64,000 nt of DNA, from positions 1 to 64,000 of the forward strand of contig CALAJH010000033.1 of NCBI GenBank assembly GCA_937922655.1, read 5' to 3'. This stretch comes from an uncultured Bacteroidia bacterium. GTDB taxonomy: Bacteria; Bacteroidota; Bacteroidia; J057; CALAJH01. The notes beneath the pieces were generated by a model that was not told the DNA's origin, did not search any database, and saw nothing but the letters and a program-made list of their open reading frames with translations. This document shows, piece by piece, positions 2,375 to 52,495 of the stretch. A program made the translations under genes and the position numbers. Position 1 is the first letter of the stretch; every line of letters begins with the position of its first letter.

Positions 2375-2468
2375 TAAGTTTCGCGAAAAATTGGCGGGCG
2401 TTTCGCTGAACGGACGGCGACAAAGGGTTCAAGAATTGTTTGAACCCGGCGGCGAATGTTTTTGTTTG

Positions 2469-2476
2469 TAATTTTG
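2469..2476 (+). promoter_or_regulatory. -7 promoter element of the RND pump
   Basis: Perfect TAATTTTG, 20 bases before the ATG at 2497. It lies inside the upstream in-frame extension to a TTG at 2440 and so argues against that earlier start. Confidence 0.65.
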
Positions 2477-2496
2477 CACGAACAAACAAACATGTC

Positions 2497-5400
2497 ATGA
2501 CGCTGACCGAGATATCGATTAAGCGGCCGTCGCTCATTATCGTGATTTTCACGGTGCTTATCGGCGCGGGCCTTTTTGCCTACAACCAATTGGGCTACGA
2601 ACTTTTGCCCAAGTTTAGGATACCGATATTGTCCATTACGACGATATACCCCGGGGCGGCGGCGGGCGAAGTCGAAGATAAAGTTACCAAAGAAATCGAG
2701 GACGCGGTGGCCTCGTTGGAAAATTTGAGCGCCATTCGTTCGATTTCCCAAGAAGGCGCCTCGCTGGTAATTCTGGAACTTCGCCAAAGCGCCGACCCCG
2801 ACCTCGCCCTTCAAGAAGCCCAGCGCAAAATCAACGCCATGGTCGGACAATTGCCCGACGACGCCGAAACGCCGGTCGTCGGCAAATTCGACTTCACCGA
2901 ACTGCCCATCCTTAACTTCGGCGTTACCGCCGCCCTGCCCCAACAAGAACTTTATCAACTGCTCAAAGACCGCATCAAACCCCGACTGACGCGCGTCGAA
3001 GGCGTGGCGCAGGTTTTCCTTTCCGGCGGCCAACAACGCGAAATACGCGTCAACCTCGACCCCGGACGCATGCGCACCTTAGGCGTCGGCATCGACCAAG
3101 TAACCCAAGCCGTCCGCTTCGGAAACATGGACTTCCCCGCCGGAAAAATCGAATCCGACGCCGTCCAATACAACCTGCGCGTCTCGGGAAAATATCATTC
3201 CATCGAAGAACTCAAAAATCTGACCGTTGGCATGACCCGCTACGGCGCCCAAATCAAACTCAAAGACGTGGCCGACGTCGTCGACGGAACCAAACAAATC
3301 GAAACCCTCAACCGCACCGACGGCAACTACTCGATTGGTTTGGCGATAATGAAACAGTCCGACGCCAACGCCGTCAAGGTTGCCGAAGGCGTTAAAAAAG
3401 AAATCGCCAAAATAAGCGAGGAGTACGCTCGCGAAAAACTTGCCTTCAATATGGCCGTGGACACCACCTATTTCACTAGGCAAGCCGCCGACGCGGTCAA
3501 AACCGACCTCGCCATCGCCGTCATCATGGTGGCGGCGGTCATGTTGTTGTTTTTGCACTCGCTTCGCAACGCCTTTATCGTCATGTTGGCCATTCCCTCG
3601 TCGATAATTTCGACGTTCATTGGCATGTATCTTTTGGGCTTTACGCTCAACCTCATGACGCTTTTGGCTATGTCGTTGGTCGTCGGCATCCTCGTCGACG
3701 ACTCGATAGTCGTCTTGGAAAACATCTACCGACACCTCGAAATGGGCAAACACCCGCGAAAAGCGGCGCTCGACGGCCGCAACGAAATCGGTTTCACGGC
3801 CATCTCCATTACCTTGGTGGACGTGGTGGTGTTTTTCCCGCTTTCGATGGTCGGCGGCATCGTCGGCAACATCATGCGCGAATTTTCGTTGGTCGTCGTC
3901 ATTTCGACGCTTTTGAGCCTCTTCGTTTCGTTTACGATAACGCCGATGTTGGCCGCGCGTTTCAGTAAGTTGCACGACATGAACAAACCCGGCGTACTCA
4001 ACGCCTTCAACCGCGCCTTCGAGGGCATGTTCGATTCGGTCAAGGACGCTTACGCGGCGTTGCTGGCGTGGTGCCTCAAAGGTTGGCGCAAAGCGCTGAC
4101 CCTTGTCGTGATTGGAATTATGTTTTTTGGGTCGTTCGGATTGGTGGCCGGCGGCTTTATCGGCGCGGAATTTATGCAGGCGGGCGACCGCGGACAATTC
4201 GTCGTTTCCATCGAAACCGAACCGACTTCCACCATCGCCTTCACCAACGAGGTAACCGTCAAAGTCGAGCAAATGCTCAAAAAATATCCCGAAGTCGAAA
4301 AAGTTTTTACCAACGTCGGCACGTCCACCAATATGATGTTCGCCACGGCTTCGCCCAATATGGCCGAAGTCAACGTTCAATTGGTTCCCGTCAAAGACCG
4401 TAAAATTTCCACCGACGAATTTGCGGAAAAAATCAAGGAGGAGGTCATGACCATTCCGGGCGTGAAGGTGAAATCCAAACCCGTCGGTATCATGGGAACC
4501 ACCGAGGATACGCCGATACAAATCGTACTTTCGGGTATGGACTACAAACTTGTTGAAAAAGCGGCCGAAATCGTGCGGAAAGCCGCCGAAGCCACGCCCG
4601 GCGCCATCAACGTCGAACTTTCCACCCAAGTGGCCAAACCCGAATTGAAAATCGAGTTCGACCGCGACCGTATGGCCACTTACGGTTTGTCCATCGCCCA
4701 AGTGGGCATGACTTTGCGCAACGCCCTTGCCGGCGACACCAAAGCCAAGTTCCGCGAAGCCAACAGCGAATACGACATCCGCGTTGCGATGGACGAATTC
4801 GACCGCTCCAAAATTTCGGATATTGAAAAACTGACGTTCGTCAGCCCGCGCGGAATGTTGGTCGAACTCAAACAGTTTGCGACCATCACGCAATCGGCGG
4901 GTCCCGTCAAGCTCGAGCGTAAAAATCGTTTGTCGTCCATCACCGTTTACTCGGGCGTATTGGGGCGTCCGATAGGCACGGTGGGCGAAGAAATCAAAGC
5001 AAAAATGAAAGAGTTCGGCAATCAAGCGGGTTTTACCACCGCCAACGGCCTGCCCGAAGGCGTGCGCGTCGACTACGACGGCATGCTGAAAAACCAAGAC
5101 GACGCCGCCGAAAGTATGGGTATCGCCCTTGTCGCCGCGTTTTTGCTGGTTTATTTGGTGATGGTCGCCCTTTACGACTCTTTCGTCTATCCGTTCGTCG
5201 TGATGTTTTCCATCCCCGTGGCGATGATAGGGGCGCTTTTGGCCATGGCCCTGACGCTCAATTCCATCAACGTCTTTTCGATGTTGGGCATCATCATGCT
5301 GTTGGGGTTGGTGGCCAAGAATGCGATATTGTTGGTGGACTTCACCAACCAACTCAAAGCCGAAGGACTGAGCCGGCGCGATGCGCTCATCGAAGCGGGG

Positions 5401-5691
5401 CGCGAACGCTTACGGCCCATCGTCATGACGACCGTGGCCATGGTCGTCGGCATGATTCCCATTGCCATTGCCAAAGGCGCCGGCGCCGAATGGAAAAACG
5501 GTCTGGCGTGGGCGCTCATCGGCGGACTGACCAGTTCCATGTTTTTGACCCTCGTCCTCGTCCCCGTCATGTACGAACTCATCGACAGAGTCAAAGACTT
5601 CTTCACGGGTTCCAAACAGCCGGTTGAAAACCAAACGTCCGACGCCCAAGAAACCATCGAAACCCCGATACTCGAACCGGTTTTGAATTAA
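2497..5691 (+). CDS. RND family efflux transporter, inner-membrane pump subunit (AcrB/MexB-like)
   Basis: This is a 1064-residue HAE1-type resistance-nodulation-division permease, the proton-driven inner-membrane part of a tripartite exporter. The N-terminus TEISIKRPSLIIVIF begins TM1. The TM4 signature GILVDDSIVVLENIYRHLE holds the paired aspartates of the proton relay. The second half repeats the fold, including GLVAKNAILLVDFTNQL. The ATG at 2497 was preferred to an in-frame TTG at 2440 because a consensus promoter lies between them. No membrane-fusion protein or TolC-like gene flanks it, so partners must be encoded elsewhere. The substrate cannot be inferred. Confidence 0.93.
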   Translation: MTLTEISIKRPSLIIVIFTVLIGAGLFAYNQLGYELLPKFRIPILSITTIYPGAAAGEVEDKVTKEIEDAVASLENLSAIRSISQEGASLVILELRQSADPDLALQEAQRKINAMVGQLPDDAETPVVGKFDFTELPILNFGVTAALPQQELYQLLKDRIKPRLTRVEGVAQVFLSGGQQREIRVNLDPGRMRTLGVGIDQVTQAVRFGNMDFPAGKIESDAVQYNLRVSGKYHSIEELKNLTVGMTRYGAQIKLKDVADVVDGTKQIETLNRTDGNYSIGLAIMKQSDANAVKVAEGVKKEIAKISEEYAREKLAFNMAVDTTYFTRQAADAVKTDLAIAVIMVAAVMLLFLHSLRNAFIVMLAIPSSIISTFIGMYLLGFTLNLMTLLAMSLVVGILVDDSIVVLENIYRHLEMGKHPRKAALDGRNEIGFTAISITLVDVVVFFPLSMVGGIVGNIMREFSLVVVISTLLSLFVSFTITPMLAARFSKLHDMNKPGVLNAFNRAFEGMFDSVKDAYAALLAWCLKGWRKALTLVVIGIMFFGSFGLVAGGFIGAEFMQAGDRGQFVVSIETEPTSTIAFTNEVTVKVEQMLKKYPEVEKVFTNVGTSTNMMFATASPNMAEVNVQLVPVKDRKISTDEFAEKIKEEVMTIPGVKVKSKPVGIMGTTEDTPIQIVLSGMDYKLVEKAAEIVRKAAEATPGAINVELSTQVAKPELKIEFDRDRMATYGLSIAQVGMTLRNALAGDTKAKFREANSEYDIRVAMDEFDRSKISDIEKLTFVSPRGMLVELKQFATITQSAGPVKLERKNRLSSITVYSGVLGRPIGTVGEEIKAKMKEFGNQAGFTTANGLPEGVRVDYDGMLKNQDDAAESMGIALVAAFLLVYLVMVALYDSFVYPFVVMFSIPVAMIGALLAMALTLNSINVFSMLGIIMLLGLVAKNAILLVDFTNQLKAEGLSRRDALIEAGRERLRPIVMTTVAMVVGMIPIAIAKGAGAEWKNGLAWALIGGLTSSMFLTLVLVPVMYELIDRVKDFFTGSKQPVENQTSDAQETIETPILEPVLN

Positions 5692-6050: not shown

Positions 6051-9000
6051 ATGAAACATTTTTATGCTTTTCTGTTTTGGTTCGTTGTAATTTTTCCATC
6101 TTTCCGGGCTTTTTCGCAGACGATAGTGCGTTGCGCGACGATGGAAAACGATTCGTTGTTGCGGGCGAAACATCCGAAGCTCGGGACGTTGGACGAATTT
6201 GAGGCGTGGTTGCAGGAACGGATACGTGAAACGCGGCTCAACCGCGACGGCGGTCAAATTTTTACGATTCCCGTAGTGGTTCACGTCATTCACAACGGGG
6301 AGACCGTCGGCACGGGAACGAACATTTCGGACGCACAAATTTTGTCGCAAATCGAGGTCTTGAACCAAGATTATCGGAAAATGTACGGCACGCGCGGTTA
6401 CAACGTCCATGCCGACGGTTCGGATACACGCATCGAGTTTTGTATGGCACGCCGCCGCCCGGACGGCACGGCCACCACGGGCATCAACCGCATCGACCGC
6501 AACGTCATGGGTTGGACGGCGCCGCCCTACACCCAAGCCTATATGGACGGCACCATCAAGCCCGCCACCATCTGGGACCCCAACCGCTACCTGAATATGT
6601 GGGTCGCCAATTTGGGTGGGGGATTGTTGGGCTACGCGCAGTTTCCCGAACGCTCGAGTCTGCGAGGCATGGCGGCGGCAACAAGTTGTCCGGCCACGCC
6701 CGCGGCAAGCACCGACGGTTTGGTCATGCTTTATTCCGCTTTCGGCACCACCGACCCCAATCCGGCGTTTACCTTGGGTTTTCCCTACGACAAGGGCCGA
6801 ACCACCACCCACGAAATCGGCCATTGGGTCGGACTGCGCCACATCTGGGGCGACGGCAACTGCTCCGTCGACGACTTCTGCCACGACACCCCTACGGCCG
6901 GCGCCGCCAATTACGGTTGCCCCACCATCAATTCCTGCACCGACCCCGCCCCCGACCGACCGGACATGGTCCAAAATTACATGGACTATACCGACGACGC
7001 CTGCATGAATATCTTCACCCACGACCAAACCGTGCGTATGCGTACGGTCATGCTCAACTCCCCACGGAGACGAAGCCTCGTTACCTCCAACGCCTGCGTC
7101 CCCCCTACCACCAACGACGCCGCCGTCATCGCCGTAACCCATCCCGTCGGCGATTATTGCAACGCCACGATAACCCCCGTCGTCACGATTCGCAACAACG
7201 GCGGCAACAACCTCGCGTCCGTTACCGTGCGTTGGCAGGCCGACGGCGGGCCGATAAACTCTTTTGCTTGGACGGGCACGCTTACACCGTCGGCAACGCT
7301 CACTTTGACGCTGTCCCCGATGACCGTATCGTTGGGCGAGCATTCGTTTAAGGCATGGACAACGCTGCCCAACGGCCTGCCCGACCCCGAACCCCAACGC
7401 GACACCGCCTATTCGACTTTCGCTTACTCGCTCGGCATTGCCCCGCCCTTTTTCGAGGATTTTGAGTCCAACGTTTTTCCACCCAAATTTTGGCGGCGGG
7501 TAAACGTTTCCGACGACTGTTACACTTGGGCCGAAGTGCCGAACATCGTCGGCATTGCGGGTACGCGCACCACCGCCGCCTTCGTTTACCATTACAACTA
7601 CAACGGAACGAGCCAAACCGACGAACTTATTTCTCCCGTCATCGATTTGACCGGAGTTTCGGCCGCGACGCTGAATTTCGACCTCGCCCATCGTCGATAC
7701 GACGCTTCGACCAACGAACGCCTTAGAATATTGGTTTCGACGGATTGCGGCGCGACGTGGCCTTCGGTCGTTTACAACAAATGCGACGCCTGCGCCGCGC
7801 CCAACAACCTTCCCACCCTTGCCGCGGGTACCGCCGACTTTTTTCCAACGGCCAACACCCAATGGCGCACGGAAAGCGTCAATTTGGCCGCGTTTATTGG
7901 TCAACGCGTCCGTTTGAAATTTGAAACGACCAACTCCTACGGCAACAACACGTTTATCGACAACATACGCATTCCCGCGACGGGGCCGAAAATATCGTTC
8001 GTAAACACGGCAACGACGACGGCCGAAAGCTCCGCCGACGGAACGAGCGGTTGCCGCGGGTACGTGGACGTAACGATACCGTTGCAAATCAGCGCCGCGC
8101 CCACGGGTGCGGCCACCGTAACCTTTTCCTCCGCGGGAAGCGCCCACAACGGCGCCGACTTCCAAATCCTCACCCCTACCGTCGTTTTTCCCAACGCCGC
8201 CACGGGCAATCAAAATCTAATCGTGCGCGTCTTTGACGACGCCGCCGTCGAAAACAATGAAACCGTCGTTGTGTCGTTTTCCGTTTCGGGGGCGACCAAC
8301 GCGTCCGCAAGCTCCACCAACATCGTCCACACGATAACCATCGGCGACAACGACGCCGAACCCTCGCCGGCAACGGTATTTTTGTTGAACCAAAACTTCA
8401 ACACCCTACCCAACTTTTTCCCCGACGGGTGGAGTTATCGCAACGTCGTTTCGACGAACAACCAATGGATTGTCGGACCGAACGGCGGAAGCGGCATTAC
8501 CGGACACAGCGCCTACGTTACCAACAACCCCTCCACCCGTCCTTTGGCTTATACCAACAGCCAAAACACCGACATTTTCTTGTATTCTCCGCTCATCGAC
8601 GCACGCAAATATTCGAATTTGATGCTTTCATTTAAATATAAATGCAACGGTGAAGCGGGCAACGACCGAGGTTTCGTCTATTATTCATACGATTTGGTCA
8701 ATTTCGTACAAATACTGGGTCCTTACAACGGTACAAGCGCGGCAACCACGGTGAACTTTTCCTTGCCGGCGGCGCTGAACGGCAAAGAATTTTATTTGGC
8801 TTGGCGTTTTGTGAGCAACAACAACTCGGTTGGTTCCAATCCGCCGTTTTTGGTGGACGACGTAACGGTAACGGCGCCGGCCACGCCGATAGAAAACACG
8901 CTTTCGTCGGTACAACGCTACCTCGGCCCGCGTTCGACGGTCTATTTTGTCAATGCCGCCGGCAGACTCATGGCCAAAATCGTCAACGACACCGACCACG

Positions 9001-9887
9001 ACTACGGTTGCACGACCGTTGAAATCGACCGAACGGGAACGTCGGCGGTGGCGTTCCAAAACCCTGCCGCCTCGGGTCACATCACCTCTAAAACGATACT
9101 TGTTACGCCGACGAACAACAAACCCGACGGCGAATACACCGCGACGCTATATTATTTGTCCGGCGAAGCAACGGGATGGGAATCGGCGACAAGCAACCTC
9201 TGGAACGACGCAACGATTGTGAAATCGGGCGGGGCGATAAAAAACGTTACGCCCGCCACTCCCGACGCCAACGGCCCAACGAATTATTACGGCACGTCGC
9301 CGGCGACGGGAACCTATGGTACGGGTCAAACCGTGACCGCAACGTTCAACACGGGTTTTTCGGGCATGGGCGTGGGTAAGCCGGGTCCCGGCGGCCCTAT
9401 CATGGACCCGCCGCTGTTCTTGGACGGTTTCATGCTTTCCGGACGCATGGAAAACGAAACCGCCGTCCTGACTTGGCCCGAAACCTGCGTCGATTGCAAG
9501 TACGTTTTGGAAAAATGTGTGGTCGGCAAATTTTTTTCGCCCGAAATTTTGCCCTCGCAAAACGGATTTTATCGCGAACCCTTGTTGGGAACGGCTTATT
9601 ATCGGGTCAAACGGCGCAATTGGGACCAAACCGACTATTCCAACGTCGTCGAACTTTCGAGCGAGCGTTTTGCATTGTATCCGAACCCGGTGGTCGAAAG
9701 CGTACGGGTCGTGGGGGCAAAGACCGTCGTTGTGTACGATGTTTTGGGCCGGGAAATATATAGAATGGAAAACGCGGAGGAAGCGCATGAAATCCGCACG
9801 GAGCATTGGCCCGACGGCGCCTATACGGCGGTATGTGCGACGGGCGGACGGGTGGAGCGAAAAACGTTTGTCAAAAAGTCGGAATAA
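6051..9887 (+). CDS. Secreted M43-family metalloprotease with adhesion domains and T9SS sorting domain
   Basis: A signal peptide (residues 1-22) precedes a pappalysin/cytophagalysin-type catalytic domain. Its zinc motif HEIGHWVGLRH places His254, Glu255, His258 and His264, and a Met-turn region follows at QNYMDYTDD. Downstream are a CARDB-like region (about 345-450), a choice-of-anchor/MAM-like domain (about 465-640), a Calx-beta domain (about 655-780), a second choice-of-anchor domain (about 790-935) and a T9SS type-A C-terminal domain (LYPNPVVESV through FVKK). The protein is predicted to be exported across the outer membrane by T9SS and attached to the surface or released, where it degrades proteins. 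It is 1278 residues long and stands alone, followed by a bidirectional terminator. Confidence 0.93.
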   Translation: MKHFYAFLFWFVVIFPSFRAFSQTIVRCATMENDSLLRAKHPKLGTLDEFEAWLQERIRETRLNRDGGQIFTIPVVVHVIHNGETVGTGTNISDAQILSQIEVLNQDYRKMYGTRGYNVHADGSDTRIEFCMARRRPDGTATTGINRIDRNVMGWTAPPYTQAYMDGTIKPATIWDPNRYLNMWVANLGGGLLGYAQFPERSSLRGMAAATSCPATPAASTDGLVMLYSAFGTTDPNPAFTLGFPYDKGRTTTHEIGHWVGLRHIWGDGNCSVDDFCHDTPTAGAANYGCPTINSCTDPAPDRPDMVQNYMDYTDDACMNIFTHDQTVRMRTVMLNSPRRRSLVTSNACVPPTTNDAAVIAVTHPVGDYCNATITPVVTIRNNGGNNLASVTVRWQADGGPINSFAWTGTLTPSATLTLTLSPMTVSLGEHSFKAWTTLPNGLPDPEPQRDTAYSTFAYSLGIAPPFFEDFESNVFPPKFWRRVNVSDDCYTWAEVPNIVGIAGTRTTAAFVYHYNYNGTSQTDELISPVIDLTGVSAATLNFDLAHRRYDASTNERLRILVSTDCGATWPSVVYNKCDACAAPNNLPTLAAGTADFFPTANTQWRTESVNLAAFIGQRVRLKFETTNSYGNNTFIDNIRIPATGPKISFVNTATTTAESSADGTSGCRGYVDVTIPLQISAAPTGAATVTFSSAGSAHNGADFQILTPTVVFPNAATGNQNLIVRVFDDAAVENNETVVVSFSVSGATNASASSTNIVHTITIGDNDAEPSPATVFLLNQNFNTLPNFFPDGWSYRNVVSTNNQWIVGPNGGSGITGHSAYVTNNPSTRPLAYTNSQNTDIFLYSPLIDARKYSNLMLSFKYKCNGEAGNDRGFVYYSYDLVNFVQILGPYNGTSAATTVNFSLPAALNGKEFYLAWRFVSNNNSVGSNPPFLVDDVTVTAPATPIENTLSSVQRYLGPRSTVYFVNAAGRLMAKIVNDTDHDYGCTTVEIDRTGTSAVAFQNPAASGHITSKTILVTPTNNKPDGEYTATLYYLSGEATGWESATSNLWNDATIVKSGGAIKNVTPATPDANGPTNYYGTSPATGTYGTGQTVTATFNTGFSGMGVGKPGPGGPIMDPPLFLDGFMLSGRMENETAVLTWPETCVDCKYVLEKCVVGKFFSPEILPSQNGFYREPLLGTAYYRVKRRNWDQTDYSNVVELSSERFALYPNPVVESVRVVGAKTVVVYDVLGREIYRMENAEEAHEIRTEHWPDGAYTAVCATGGRVERKTFVKKSE

Positions 9888-13073: not shown

Positions 13074-16000
13074 TCACACCCTTTCAACGTACAACTTCCC
13101 AACCGCTTCGTCGATTTCGATTTCGGCGCCCTCGGTAACGGTTCCGAGTTCCAACGACACGGCCAAAACCTCCGAGGCAATAAAGTCCTTGTGGGCCTTG
13201 ACGGCGATGTTCCAAGCCTCGTTTTCACTCAAAACGACCCGAATTCTGTCGGTTACGTCGAAATCCAAATCCTTTCTGCGGTTTTGGATGCGATTGACGA
13301 GTTCGCGGGCCGTGCCTTCGAGCCGCAACGCTTCGGTAACGGCAATGTCGAGGGCGACGGTCGTTTTTCCGTCGCCGGCCACGTCCAATCCCGGCACTTC
13401 GAGCGTCGTCAGTTCGATTTCTTCGCCGACGAGCGTTACCGGACCATCGGCAAGGGCAAGCGTTATTTGTCCGTCGCGCTCGAATGCGGCCACCTCGTCG
13501 GAACTCAAATTTTCCAGCGCCGATTGGACGGCCTTCATTTTCGGCCCCAATTTTTTACCCAAAAGTTTGAAGTTCGGTTTGGCTTTTTTGACCAAAAAAT
13601 GAGGCGGAATGATTTCCACGCTTTTGACGTTCAACTCCGACATTATCAATTCTTTTTCGGCCAATATCGCGTTCGCTTCCGTTTCATCGAGGGCGACGAG
13701 CATCGCTTTTTGTAACGGGATGCGTACCTTAATGTTGTGTTTGCGGCGGATACTTCGGCCCAACGAACATGCCGCCTGCGCTTTTTCCATGCGGAAATCG
13801 AGTTCGGCGTCGATGTACCGGGCTTCGGGACGGGGAAATTTCGACAAATGCACCGAATCGGCGGGAAGCAATGTTTTCGACGTTTGAGCGCGGTCGCGTA
13901 TCGGACCCGTCAGGCAACGATAAATTTTTTCCGACGAAAACGGCGCAATCGGACTCATCAATCGCACGACCGCCGTTAAACATTCGTAAAGCGTTTCGTA
14001 CGCCGCTTTTTTGTCCTCGTTCATTTCGCCTTTCCAAAAGCGACGACGGTTGAGGCGTACGTACCAATTTGAAAGTTCTTCGACGACGAAATGTTGAACG
14101 GCCCGCGCGGCCCGGGTCGGTTCGTAGTTTTCGTATTCGCGTTCGACGTGCGTAATCAAGGACTGTAAGCGCGAAACAATCCATCGGTCCATGCCGGGCC
14201 GGTTTTCCACGGGCGTAACGTTCGTTTCGTCGACAACGAACCCGTCGATGTTGGCGTAAAGGGCGAAAAAGCCGTACGTGTTGTAGAGGGTAACGAAAAA
14301 TTTACGGTAGGTTTCGACAAGGCCGTCGATGTTGAAACGCAGGTTTTCCCACGGCGAAACGTTTTCGAGCATGTACCAACGCAGTACGTCCGCCCCCCAT
14401 TCTTCCATGACGGCAAAAGGTTCGACGGCGTTGCCAAGGCGTTTGCTCATTTTGCGGCCGTCTTTGTCCAAGACAAGGCCGTTGGCGATGACGTTTTTGT
14501 AGGCCGGCTTATCTTCCAACAACACGGCGATGGCGTGCAAAGTATAAAACCAACCGCGCGTTTGGTCGACACCCTCGGCGATAAAATCCGCCGGAAACGA
14601 CTCTTGAAACGCCTTTTGGTTTTCAAACGGGTAATGGTGTTGGGCGAAGGGCATCGCTCCCGAATCGAACCATACGTCAATCAAGTCGGGTTGGCGGAGC
14701 ATGACCCCGCATTCGGGGTCGTAAAGTTTGACCCCGTCGATGTAGGGTCTGTGCAGGTCAAAGTCGCCCGAGCGCAGTCCTTCGGGGGTAAAGGGTTGGT
14801 CGGCAACGCCGTTTTGTATTGCGTATTCGATTTCTTTGGCCAATTCTTCGACCGAACCGATGCATTTGAACTTGTTGCCCGCCTCGTTGGCCCATATCGG
14901 CAAAGGAATGCCCCAATATCGGCTGCGTGAAAGGTTCCAATCGTTGACGTTTTCCAGCCAGTTGCCGAAGCGTCCCGTGCCCGTCGATTCGGGTTTCCAA
15001 TTTATCGTTTTGTTGATTTCGGCCATACGCTCGCGATAGGCGGACGTTTTGACGAACCAACTGTCCAAGGGATAGTACAACACGGGTTTGTCGGTGCGCC
15101 AACAGTGCGGGTAATTGTGTTCGTATTTTTCGACCTTGAAGGCTTTGTTTTCTTGTTTGAGTTTGACGGCGATGTCGATATCGACGGGGACGTAATCGGG
15201 GTCGTCGGTGTAATTTTTGACGTAACGGCCCGCGAAATCGGTAATTTCCGGTACAAACTTTCCTTCCTTGTCGACGATGGGCAGGGTTTCGGATTCTTTG
15301 GCGCAATAGGCGTCGGCGGGATTTTCGAGCTTTCGGGTCACGACGACGGCGGAAATGTTGTTTTTGGCGGCGACGCGAAAGTCGTCCGAACCGAAGGTGG
15401 GGGCGATGTGGACGATGCCCGTACCGTCTTCGGTGGAAACGAAATCGCCCGCAATGACCCGAAAAGCGTCGCCCTCGGGTTGAATGTAGGGCAAGAGCTG
15501 TTCGTAGCGTTGTCCGACGAGTTCGGCGCCTTTGACGGTTTTGAGAACGCGAAAAGGAATTTTTTTGTCGCCGGCTTTGAAAGCGTCGAAATCCAAGGCG
15601 GCGTTTTCGGCGGGAAAGTATTTGTGGAGCAGGGCTTGGGCGAGAACGACCGTGCCGCGCAGATGCGTGTAAGGGTTGTAGGTTTCGACGAAAACGTAGT
15701 CGATGTTTTCGCCGACGGCAAGGGCGGCGTTGGCGGGCAAGGTCCAAGGGGTGGTCGTCCACGCCAAAAAATACGTGTTTTCAAAACCCGTCGCCTTGAA
15801 CTGCGCCACGACGCTCGTGTCCTTAACCTCTTTGTAGCAGCCCGGCAAATTCAGTTCGTGGGAGCTGAGACCCGTGCCGGCGGCCGGAGAATACGGTTGT
15901 ATCGTATACCCTTTATACAAAAGTCCTTTGTCGAAAAGGCGTTTGAGCAGATGCCACACCGATTCGATGTAGTCGTTTTCAAACGTGACGTAGGGGTTTT

Positions 16001-16436
16001 CGAGGTCGAGCCAATAACCCATGCGGGTCGTGAGCCGGTCCCATACGTCCTTGAAGCGCATGACCGCCTCGCGACACTTTCGGTTGTATTCTTCGACGGA
16101 AATCGTAACGCCGACGTCTTTTTTGGTGATGCCCAGTTCTTTTTCGACTTGGAGTTCGACGGGCAGGCCGTGGGTGTCCCATCCCGCCTTTCTCGCGACC
16201 CGATAGCCTTGAAGCGTTTTGTAACGACAAAAAACGTCTTTAAGCGTCCGGGAAAGAACGTGGTGGATTCCGGGAAGACCGTTGGCCGACGGCGGCCCTT
16301 CGTAGAAGGTAAAAGCAGGGGCGTCGGGCCGTTCGTTTATCGAGCGCTCGAATATTTTTTCGCGTTCCCAAAATTCGATAATTTCCTTTTCGATTTCGGG
16401 AATATGGGGCGTTTTGATTTCGGGATAAAGTTCCAT
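13074..16436 (-). CDS. ileS: Isoleucyl-tRNA synthetase, IleRS2 type with swapped HIGH motif
   Basis: The 1120-residue class I synthetase charges tRNA-Ile. The Rossmann domain begins at residue 40 (FYEGPPSANG). The CP1 editing domain includes TTPWTLPANAALAV, the KMSKS loop is DGRKMSKRLGNAVEP, and a long anticodon-binding C-terminal region follows. Its length and KMSKR form fit the eukaryote-like IleRS2 clade, which is intrinsically mupirocin tolerant. The normal HxGH signature is instead Gly56-Ile57-His58-His59, with first and third residues exchanged. This GxHH form has been reported in some IleRS2 enzymes as giving mupirocin hyper-resistance. A promoter element lies 37 bases upstream of the ATG. 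Confidence 0.96.
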   Translation of the reverse strand: MELYPEIKTPHIPEIEKEIIEFWEREKIFERSINERPDAPAFTFYEGPPSANGLPGIHHVLSRTLKDVFCRYKTLQGYRVARKAGWDTHGLPVELQVEKELGITKKDVGVTISVEEYNRKCREAVMRFKDVWDRLTTRMGYWLDLENPYVTFENDYIESVWHLLKRLFDKGLLYKGYTIQPYSPAAGTGLSSHELNLPGCYKEVKDTSVVAQFKATGFENTYFLAWTTTPWTLPANAALAVGENIDYVFVETYNPYTHLRGTVVLAQALLHKYFPAENAALDFDAFKAGDKKIPFRVLKTVKGAELVGQRYEQLLPYIQPEGDAFRVIAGDFVSTEDGTGIVHIAPTFGSDDFRVAAKNNISAVVVTRKLENPADAYCAKESETLPIVDKEGKFVPEITDFAGRYVKNYTDDPDYVPVDIDIAVKLKQENKAFKVEKYEHNYPHCWRTDKPVLYYPLDSWFVKTSAYRERMAEINKTINWKPESTGTGRFGNWLENVNDWNLSRSRYWGIPLPIWANEAGNKFKCIGSVEELAKEIEYAIQNGVADQPFTPEGLRSGDFDLHRPYIDGVKLYDPECGVMLRQPDLIDVWFDSGAMPFAQHHYPFENQKAFQESFPADFIAEGVDQTRGWFYTLHAIAVLLEDKPAYKNVIANGLVLDKDGRKMSKRLGNAVEPFAVMEEWGADVLRWYMLENVSPWENLRFNIDGLVETYRKFFVTLYNTYGFFALYANIDGFVVDETNVTPVENRPGMDRWIVSRLQSLITHVEREYENYEPTRAARAVQHFVVEELSNWYVRLNRRRFWKGEMNEDKKAAYETLYECLTAVVRLMSPIAPFSSEKIYRCLTGPIRDRAQTSKTLLPADSVHLSKFPRPEARYIDAELDFRMEKAQAACSLGRSIRRKHNIKVRIPLQKAMLVALDETEANAILAEKELIMSELNVKSVEIIPPHFLVKKAKPNFKLLGKKLGPKMKAVQSALENLSSDEVAAFERDGQITLALADGPVTLVGEEIELTTLEVPGLDVAGDGKTTVALDIAVTEALRLEGTARELVNRIQNRRKDLDFDVTDRIRVVLSENEAWNIAVKAHKDFIASEVLAVSLELGTVTEGAEIEIDEAVGKLYVERV

Positions 16437-18040: not shown

Positions 18041-20131
18041 ATGCGGGCATGGACGACAATCGTTTTTTTGACGACGTGGGCGGCGGGCAACGAAATTTGC
18101 GCCCAAGTCATCAACGAAATCAACGTCCATCCCGCCGGCGGCGTGGAGCGAAATTCGATGTTTGTCGCCCCGCCCTGCTCGCCCGAAATGACCGCCGCCG
18201 AATGGATTGAAATTTACAATCCCAGTCCCTGCAACGCGCTCGATATTTCGTGTTACATCTTGGGCTCGAACATGGGCGCGCCCGAAAACGTCCGGCTTTG
18301 CAGCGACTTCAACGGCGAAGCCGTCAACGGCGACAACGAAGGCTTTTTCGTTTTCCCGCCCGGAACCGTCGTTCCCCCCATGGGATTTGTCACCGTCGGC
18401 GGCGGGGCCGCTCTCGACTTTTATCCTTACGATTATCGCGGTACGTATTATTGCGGCGGGCCGCGATGGTATCTCAACAGCCGTACGGGTTGGCTGGGGC
18501 TTTTCGACCCCCAAGGCGCCGTCGTCGACGCCGTCTTTTGGGGCGAATTCGGTGAAAACGAAATTTTTTCCGCCGTACAACTCGGCAGTCGGGGACGGGT
18601 GGAATGCGCCTGCCCCGGCGGCCCCAACTTTCTGCCTTCCGCACGCGAACTTTATCCCCAAAACATTCGCTTTATCGGGCTGACCGTTCCCACCCCCGAT
18701 TTTTACTCCGACCTCGACTTGGGCAAGTTCTATCGCGAACCCGACGGCGGTTGTTGGCGCATCGTTCATCGAGGTACGCCCGGCGCCTGCAACACCCGAT
18801 GTTGGGACGGCGCCTTTGCAAACATCGCGTCGAAAGGCGGTTATTTTTGCGAATCGACGACCGTCGTCGCCGGCGACGTGCACCCCTGCTCGTCCAACGA
18901 GGCGACTTATACTTGGAGCGTCGACGGCCTTGCGGTGCAATCGGGTCCGAATTTTTCTTTCGACGGCGTCGAGGGCGACGTCGTCTCCCTTGTTTTGACC
19001 GTCACCCTTGCCGACGGTTGTACCGACTCCGACACCGCAACGCTTTATCGTTACAAATCCAAACCCGAAATACAACCCAAAAATCTTGTCGTTTGCCCGG
19101 GAGATACGGCGTTTTTCACCGTAACGGGCCTTGTGGAAGAGGGGGCGACGTGGGAATGGAGCGCGTCGGGCGTGAACGTCTGGCGTGCCGGCGTTTCGAC
19201 CCTCGGCGTAGCCGGCGCCGATTCGGGCAACTACCGCCTTGATTTGCGTTTTCGTTTTGCCGACGGTTGCGTCAGCGACGGCGAAACGGCCCGTATTTGG
19301 GTGCAAGCCGCCCCTCCCGCCGCCATTCTCAATTACTTTCCCGAAACTTGTGCCGGCGAAAAAATCATGCTTCGCGCCGAAACCGTGGCCGGCGCCCGCA
19401 TTCAATGGGACTTCGACGGCGGAACGGCCACGGATTCGCTTGGTTACGGCGGTATCGCCGTCTTTTGGAATTCGCCCGGAGAAAAACGCGTGCGCATCGC
19501 CGTTTCACACCCCGATTTTCCGTGCGTTTCCCAACGCACCGAAACCCAAGTCGTCGTCAGGCCCGTTCCCGAGACTCCCTCGGCAAGGCTCGTGCCGAGT
19601 TCCGAATCGGGATGCGGATACGTTGTCGTCGCCGTGGCGCCCGCGCCCGACGGAATAAAACACGTCGTCGATTTCGGCGGCGCCGGCATCCTCACCGATT
19701 CTTCACAAACCGACGAAATACGGTATCTTGTTTTGGCGGGCGCCGCGCCGCCGCCCTATCGAATCACTTTTTTCGCCGAAAACGGATACGCATGCGTTTC
19801 CGACACGGTGGAACTGACGGCGGATTTCGACCCCGAGATTTCCGAAAAAATTTTACGATACGTCCCGCCCAACGTCTTTACCCCCAACGGCGACCCGGTC
19901 AATCCCGTGTATTTTTTGCCCGGCCTGCAAAGCGCTTGCGCCGAATACACCATGGAGATATTCGATCGCTGGGGTATGCGCGTGGCAACAATCGACGAAA
20001 AGAACCAAACATGGAACGGGGAGGTCAACGGACGACCCGCACCGGAATCCGTTTTCGTGTACGTATTGAAAATCAAACTTTACGACGGACGAAGCGCCCA
20101 AAAAACGGGAACGATAACTTTATTGAGATGA
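18041..20131 (+). CDS. Surface protein with lamin-tail domain, PKD-like repeats and T9SS type-B C-terminal domain
   Basis: The 696-residue protein has a signal peptide (cleavage near CAQ, residue 22) and then a lamin-tail domain ([19 protein letters not shown]). Several Cys-rich PKD/Ig-like beta-sandwiches follow, ending in a gliding-motility-associated type-B sorting domain ([35 protein letters not shown]). It is predicted to be exported by T9SS and displayed on the cell. The family is often implicated in adhesion or gliding, and no enzyme domain is seen. It lies 12 bases after bamD, and its stop overlaps the thiolase start (ATGA). Confidence 0.9.
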
Positions 20132-50309: not shown

Positions 50310-50509
50310 CGCTTATTCATCCAATTTTGCCGCAATAATACTATTTTTAACCGAAGCTCGGTTCACAAACGCTTAAAATTCGTTTTTAAGATAAAAAATG
50401 TTTTGTGGTAAATTTTGTGCGGCGGTCGTGTTTCGGCGTTTATGCACGAAGTCCGACTAAATGCAATAAATGCCGTGATTGTTTCGGCAAAAATAACGTT
50501 ATTGCGCTT

Positions 50510-52495
50510 ATGGCATTGGGTTGGATGTTGATTTGCGCAACGGTTTTTGCGCAAAAGTTTTCTTCGGCGTCGGAGGCGACGGATTTGTACGGATACGCGC
50601 CGAACGGGCGGCCGTTGTATCGGATGACCGTCGGCGCCGCCGACGCCAAAACTTCGGCCGCCGACGTCGCGCGTTTGACATTTGGCCTCTCGGGCGAGGG
50701 TATCGAGGTTGGGGTTTGGGACGCGGGCGCGGTGCGTGCCGGCCACCAAGAATTTACGGGGCGTGTTTTCGTCATGGATTCGTCGGAGGAACATTCGCAC
50801 GCGACGGCCGTGGCCGGTTTTGTGGCGGCGGCGGGCCTACGGCCCGAGGCCCAAGGCATCGCTTACCGCGCCCGCGTACTCTCTTACGATTGGAATCACG
50901 ACGGCGACGAAATGCGGCGCGAGGCCGCCGCCGGACTTCTTGTTTCCAACCACTCTTACGTCCCCATCACCGGATGGTTTTACGACCGCAACGACGAACG
51001 CTGGGAATGGTACGGGGATATCACGCTTTCACAAACCGAAGACGCAGGTTTCGGCGCCTATACCGCATGGTCGGCCGCATGGGATTCCATCGCCTACGAA
51101 AATCCGACGTATACCGTCGTGGCGGCGGCGGGCAACGACCGTTCCAACGTCGGCCCCGGAGAAGGCGAAAAGTTTTATGTTTACGACCCCGAAGTCAACG
51201 ACTGGGCCGAGGGACGCTTTACGCCGCCCGGGCGCGACGGCGGCGCCGACGGCTTCGATTGTTTGCCCGCCTCGGGCACGGCGCTCAACGTCCTGACCGT
51301 CGGCGCCGTTTTTGGTTTGCCCGACGGCTGGCAAGGCCCCGAATCCGTACGCATCTCCAATTTTTCCGTTTTCGGACCCACGGACGACGGACGCCTCAAA
51401 CCCGACCTTGTCGCACAAGGCGTCGCGGGTTATACCGTCGGCCCGAACACCGATTACGATTACAACGTCAATTTTTCGGGTACGTCGATGGCCGCGCCCG
51501 TCGTCGCCGGCGGACTGGCGCTTGTCCAAGAATACGCTCGAAAACATCGCGGCGGCGCTTTGTTTTCCGACGAACTTAAAGCTTTGGCCGTTCATGCGGC
51601 GGACGAAGCCGGCGAACATCCCGGCCCCGATTATCGCTTCGGTTGGGGACTTTTCAACGTCGAAAAAATGGTGCGGATTTTGGCCGATTCGACGGGCCGC
51701 GCCGGAACCATGCGCAAGACCCTTGCCCAACGACAAAAAATTCATTTTGCCGTCTATTTGGACGAAGGACAAAGTTTGAAGGCCACCGCCGCATGGCTCA
51801 ACCCGCCCCCGCAAGTCCGTCCCCTTGCCCTCGACGACCCTACGCCCCGCCTCGTTCACGACCTCGACCTTTACATCGCCGGTCCCGACGACGAACGTTT
51901 TTTTCCATGGCTACTCGACCCCGAAAATCCCGCACGCGCCGCCGTCCGTGCCCCCAACCCTCGCGACAACGTCGAACAAGTCCTAATCGAATCCGCACCG
52001 CGGTCGGGTTATTACGTCGTAACCGTCGAGGCGCCCGAACGTTTGCCTTTCGGCCCGCAAAACGTCGCGTTGGTTTGGCAGGCTTCGGGCGCGGCGTCAT
52101 GTCCGACCGTCGAAATTTTTCAATCCGATTACTCGACGCTTTGCCGCCAAGGACGATGTACGATTTTTTCGTCCTCGGGAACGTACGCCGTCGAAACGTA
52201 CGCGGGCTGTCCGGATTTGCCATTGACGATGAGCATGCCCGCCGCGCCCGAGTTGAAAGCATGGCCCGTTCCCGCCGCCGACGTTTTGAACGTCGAAGCG
52301 TTTTGGAACCGGAGCGTCTCCGAGGCGGCGTTGGAATTGGTCGACGTTGCCGGAAAAACGCTGGTTTCGGTCGCGTTGACCGCCGACCCCGGTCCGAAGT
52401 ACGTTTCCCTATCCGTAGCGGACGTTCCCGACGGCGTATATTTCCTTCGCGTCAAAAATACGGGTTTATACAAAAAGGCGGTCGTGGCGCGTTAA
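50510..52495 (+). CDS. Subtilisin-like S8 serine protease with T9SS sorting domain
   Basis: The 661-residue protein has a short signal peptide (cleavage near VFAQ, residue 15) and a subtilase domain. The triad is Asp71 (VGVWDAG), His97 (HATAVAG) and Ser326 (FSGTSMAAP), and the oxyanion Asn209 is in AAAGND. A jelly-roll P-like domain (about 420-540) and a T9SS type-A C-terminal domain (LKAWPVPAADVLNVEA to KKAVVAR) follow. It is predicted to be exported to the cell surface or medium. The chosen ATG gives a signal without positive charge; the frame is open to a GTG at 50405, so the true start may be earlier. It lies 19 bases before the PorE-like gene. Confidence 0.92.
   Translation: MALGWMLICATVFAQKFSSASEATDLYGYAPNGRPLYRMTVGAADAKTSAADVARLTFGLSGEGIEVGVWDAGAVRAGHQEFTGRVFVMDSSEEHSHATAVAGFVAAAGLRPEAQGIAYRARVLSYDWNHDGDEMRREAAAGLLVSNHSYVPITGWFYDRNDERWEWYGDITLSQTEDAGFGAYTAWSAAWDSIAYENPTYTVVAAAGNDRSNVGPGEGEKFYVYDPEVNDWAEGRFTPPGRDGGADGFDCLPASGTALNVLTVGAVFGLPDGWQGPESVRISNFSVFGPTDDGRLKPDLVAQGVAGYTVGPNTDYDYNVNFSGTSMAAPVVAGGLALVQEYARKHRGGALFSDELKALAVHAADEAGEHPGPDYRFGWGLFNVEKMVRILADSTGRAGTMRKTLAQRQKIHFAVYLDEGQSLKATAAWLNPPPQVRPLALDDPTPRLVHDLDLYIAGPDDERFFPWLLDPENPARAAVRAPNPRDNVEQVLIESAPRSGYYVVTVEAPERLPFGPQNVALVWQASGAASCPTVEIFQSDYSTLCRQGRCTIFSSSGTYAVETYAGCPDLPLTMSMPAAPELKAWPVPAADVLNVEAFWNRSVSEAALELVDVAGKTLVSVALTADPGPKYVSLSVADVPDGVYFLRVKNTGLYKKAVVAR

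Follow-up and report, generated by a model that had tools for sequence, protein, structure and literature searches.

A type 2 isoleucyl-tRNA synthetase with a first/third-swapped HIGH motif as the sole IleRS of a Bacteroidota bacterium

The ileS gene and its HIGH motif

The window analysed here, a stretch of 64,000 nt from an uncultured Bacteroidia bacterium, carries on its reverse strand a gene for isoleucyl-tRNA synthetase (IleRS) in which the HIGH motif of class I synthetases is altered. The gene and the elements of its product are as follows:

13074..16436, (-) strand: ileS, isoleucyl-tRNA synthetase type 2 (IleRS2), 1120 aa, complete; TIGR00392 at 973 bits (cut-off 621), with PF00133, PF08264 and PF19302
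16260..16271, (-) strand: GIHH at residues 56-59, the class I HIGH motif with its first and third residues exchanged; codons read directly, column-by-column alignment with HxGH references
14439..14453, (-) strand: KMSKR at residues 662-666, in the KMSKS loop that forms the second signature motif of class I; alignment with E. coli K602 and K605
15381..15758, (-) strand: a segment of the CP1 editing domain (residues 227-352 approximately); alignment with E. coli editing residues
13077..13652, (-) strand: DUF5915 (PF19302) at the C-terminus, residues 929-1120, where IleRS1 has a zinc finger; Pfam E-value 1.9e-50, with E. coli IleRS1 (zf-FPG_IleRS) as control

The open reading frame runs unbroken from ATG to stop and reads ...FYEGPPSANGLPGIHHVLSRTLKDVFCRYKT... 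Direct reading of the codons gives GGA ATC CAC CAC at 16271-16260, one base away from positions 16259-16270, where an earlier sequence-only reading had placed the motif. In a 55-sequence alignment this GIHH falls exactly on the columns that hold HVGH, HMGH or HIGH in reference IleRSs, and its context, GPPSANGLP-GIHH-VLSRTLKD, aligns without gaps with Priestia megaterium IleRS2 and E. coli IleRS1. Because GIHH occupies the HxGH columns without a gap and the flanking NGLP and LKD are aligned as well, the exchange of the first and third residues is confirmed as real, just as that reading had proposed from the same residues and their matching surroundings. Chance or sequencing error is excluded, because an independent scan found the motif in nearly all sampled Bacteroidota genomes (see below) and because the best structural match of the enzyme, the P. 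megaterium IleRS2 chain 8c8w, carries GVHH. Gly in first place and His in third put the window enzyme in the G/AxHH class, for which Gly or Ala and His are the defining residues at these positions.

Enzyme type, copy number and surroundings

The protein matches the NCBIfam model TIGR00392 with 972.7 bits (cut-off 621.4) along profile positions 7-859 of 861, and its Pfam domains are the class I catalytic, the anticodon-binding and the C-terminal DUF5915 domains. Both its C-terminus and its phylogeny identify it as an IleRS2. The C-terminus is of the type 2 form that has no zinc-binding motif, with PF19302 present and PF06827 absent, whereas the E. coli IleRS1 control ends in the zinc finger zf-FPG_IleRS (PF06827). 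In a tree of 55 sequences, built with both motif regions removed and with ValRS as outgroup, the enzyme lies within the IleRS2 clade (support 100/100) and is nested inside the Bacteroidota clade (100/100), its nearest row being a genome of the same order. The sequence-only reading had called the enzyme an IleRS2 and had named a place in the IleRS1 clade as a refutation; the tree put it with IleRS2. The closest solved structure is that of P. megaterium IleRS2 (PDB 8c8u and 8c8v with HVGH, 8c8w with GVHH), matched at 832-841 bits over residues 14-1106.

Outside the HIGH motif, residues required for catalysis and editing are retained: the lysines of the KMSKS loop are kept in the alignment (K662 and K665, corresponding to E. 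coli K602 and K605), as are the editing residues T227-T229, N236, H343 and D352 (E. coli T241-T243, N250, H333 and D342). Two residues named as mupirocin contacts in IleRS1 by Brkic et al. (PMC10485003), Asn70 and Phe586, are altered in the window enzyme to Ser62 and Leu654.

The same paper reports that GxHH abolishes the activity of IleRS1, which would fit an IleRS1 whose HIGH motif has been damaged, whether as an error, a pseudogene or an inactive enzyme. This explanation is refuted by the IleRS2 clade and domain layout, the complete reading frame, the conservation of the motif across the phylum and the fact that the enzyme is essential and present in no other copy; we give it practically no credence.

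In the window's own genome (3.58 Mb in 84 contigs, completeness 100, contamination 0.74), the family search returned one IleRS over the cut-off, with all other matches far below it. The motif PPPNVTGVLHMGH marks the next best of these as a ValRS; going by nothing more than length and score, the remaining ones look LeuRS- or MetRS-like. This search for a second ileS thus bears out the earlier suspicion that the enzyme is the only IleRS of the cell. In 60 relatives, too, a single IleRS per genome exceeds the cut-off, if genes broken up between contigs or pieces are disregarded. As the sole IleRS over the cut-off in a 100%-complete assembly, the window ileS most likely serves as a functional housekeeping enzyme.

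Could it instead be a second copy dedicated to resistance, either acquired or similar to MupA and MupB? These plasmid-borne IleRS2s are, like the window enzyme, of the IleRS type, and are associated with mupirocin resistance. Their profiles do match the window protein, at 772 and 801 bits, as they would match any IleRS2; however, these scores are far below the cut-offs of 1900 for the MupA/MupB exception models of NCBIfam, and the protein is no member of either. Unlike MupA and MupB, it is also the sole IleRS of its genome and common to its lineage, and the gene tree places it among other Bacteroidota rather than in a foreign lineage. We consider a dedicated resistance copy extremely improbable, as the genome search for a second ileS rules it out.

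Among the proteins scanned around ileS, which represent part of the open reading frames nearby, we identified a downstream glycosyltransferase and, upstream of the gene, a CDGSH-type protein and a lipoprotein resembling YfiO; the others are also of kinds ordinary for Bacteroidota, with no sign of a resistance island or mobile element and no mupirocin-type biosynthetic genes. Elsewhere in the window, an efflux transporter of the RND type (2440-5691; AcrB family, 866 bits) might add to drug tolerance on its own account but has no connection with ileS. A modification-dependent restriction endonuclease of the GmrSD type, encoded at 230-2374, unites both domains in a single protein. Sorting domains for type IX secretion (CHU_C, Por_Secre_tail) occur in the products of 18041-20131, 6051-9887 and 50405-52495, which are a protein with a lamin-tail-like domain, an M43-type metallopeptidase and a subtilase. 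No RNA families, tRNA or tmRNA were found in the window.

Distribution and ancestry of the swapped motif

A pattern scan for NGxP[G/A]xHH found a match in 295 of 296 sampled Bacteroidota genomes; each genome with one or more matches counts once, and a few extra GxHH matches are due to chance. The sole genome lacking the pattern (G345) is 88% complete. Where the motif was read in individual Bacteroidota IleRS loci, 123 of 125 had GIHH, one GLHH and one GVHH. The alternative form NGxP-HxGH was matched in 23 Bacteroidota genomes, none of these matches being at an IleRS: ten of the loci resemble glutaminyl-tRNA synthetase (RFPPEPNGYPHIGH), and the others are reading frames that match by chance. 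Checked singly, the HxGH matches of these 23 genomes revealed neither a reversion to HxGH nor a second IleRS2. Because it is near-universal in the sampled Bacteroidota, GxHH is the normal condition of the phylum rather than something special to this genome. Beyond the phylum, we found GIHH in Clostridia-type Bacillota and GxHH or ATHH in Chloroflexota.

At the second signature motif, the KMSKS loop of 97 Bacteroidota IleRSs reads KMSKR in 88, KMSKS in 8 and KMSKT in 1, and every GIHH locus read in Bacillota carries KMSKS. We therefore rejected KMSKR as an obligatory partner of GxHH. A different substitution was seen in six Bacillota IleRS1 loci (L192, L206, L215, L217, L218 and L219), in which HIGH reads HLGT, with the fourth His replaced by Thr and KMSKS kept where it was read.

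A deep IleRS2 clade of Chloroflexota (L235-L245) has both class I motifs altered, with GVHH for HIGH and [E/A/P]MHKS for KMSKS, the latter in all 11 loci that contain the loop. The HIGH-side pattern occurs in 65 of 151 genomes of that phylum, and the genomes of the GVHH/xMHKS clade list only one IleRS over the cut-off. In the 55-sequence tree this clade is sister to all other IleRS2s. The combination is more unusual than the motif of the window enzyme. Brkic et al. (PMC10485003) mention a minor IleRS2 clade whose ancestor had GXHH and which contains few Chloroflexi sequences; the main text of that paper says nothing of MHKS, though the combination may be known to its authors.

These observations bear on the origin of the swapped motif. 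It is conceivable, though in our view rather unlikely, that GxHH is ancestral in bacterial IleRS2, with the HxGH enzymes of Thermus, Priestia and others being reversions; the swapped motif would then be an old alternative form of the class I active site instead of a resistance adaptation acquired late. The earliest-branching IleRS2 clade, that of Chloroflexota, is all GVHH, and the tree needs only 3-4 state changes in a small and unevenly chosen sample. Against this, HxGH is the favoured ancestral state of the major clade in the reconstruction from 379 sequences reported in PMC10485003.

Mupirocin and the swapped motif

That GxHH IleRS2s are hyper-resistant to mupirocin, as the sequence-only reading stated, was documented in 2023 by Brkic et al. 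(PMC10485003), who exchanged the motif both ways by mutation. The IleRS2 of Deinococcus radiodurans, with its natural ALHH, has a Ki of 6.6 mM, which fell to 8.1 uM when the motif was changed to HVGH. Conversely, changing HVGH to GVHH in two IleRS2s raised the Ki about 170-430-fold, from 0.20 to 35 uM in Thermus thermophilus and from 1.08 to 460 uM in P. megaterium. According to the same paper, bound mupirocin pushes the motif back, and the third His then clashes with the drug. A Ki of about 10 mM was reported for the IleRS2 of Streptomyces griseus (PMC4861432). The swapped motif and its mechanism are thus already known, and the window finding, a trait shared with other genomes, is not novel and adds no new mechanism.

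The window enzyme resembles the G/AxHH enzymes of D. radiodurans and S. griseus, as described in PMC10485003, in being a type 2 housekeeping enzyme with the first/third exchange. It differs in its lineage, and Bacteroidota IleRS2s mostly have KMSKR in place of KMSKS. P. megaterium differs in that its wild-type IleRS2 has HVGH and coexists with an IleRS1, and that the higher Ki is found only in the GVHH mutant. In the literature searched, the measured Ki values were those of Deinococcus, Streptomyces, Thermus and Priestia, and none was found for a Bacteroidota IleRS. Direct sensitivity data for Bacteroidota were also sought, yielding a single indirect hint too weak to count: a 2026 culture study in which a model predicts that mupirocin raises the recovered diversity of Bacteroidaceae (PMC13085705).

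From these relatives we strongly infer that the window IleRS would be hyper-resistant to mupirocin, with a millimolar Ki expected by analogy with D. radiodurans and S. griseus, in which such values were measured. His58 would clash with the bound drug, placing the Ki in the high micromolar to millimolar range, and the enzyme would charge tRNA-Ile normally. Insensitivity would in this case be built into the essential enzyme, rather than conferred by an acquired resistance gene. We are thus highly confident that the window ileS encodes the sole housekeeping IleRS of this Bacteroidota bacterium, a type 2 enzyme with a phylum-inherited GxHH and a predicted built-in insensitivity to mupirocin.

Whether this trait is adaptive is a separate matter. 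GxHH may have become fixed early in Bacteroidota as a neutral or catalytic trait, with resistance in vitro as an unselected by-product of little relevance in the habitat, a view that competes with the adaptive reading only. The motif is essentially universal across the phylum whatever the family, with no second IleRS for comparison; natural GxHH enzymes carry no catalytic cost according to PMC10485003; and the genes scanned near ileS are ordinary. The authors of that paper, however, favour selection by natural antibiotics, and the present data do not separate selection from drift. We put early fixation without selection at slightly below an even chance.

Together with the published work, the phylum scan indicates that Bacteroidota as a whole, including many gut commensals, may be insensitive to mupirocin at the target level by default. 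If so, resistome annotations that list ileS of Bacteroidota among acquired resistance genes would mislead, and mupirocin would serve poorly for depriving these bacteria of Ile-tRNA in experiments.
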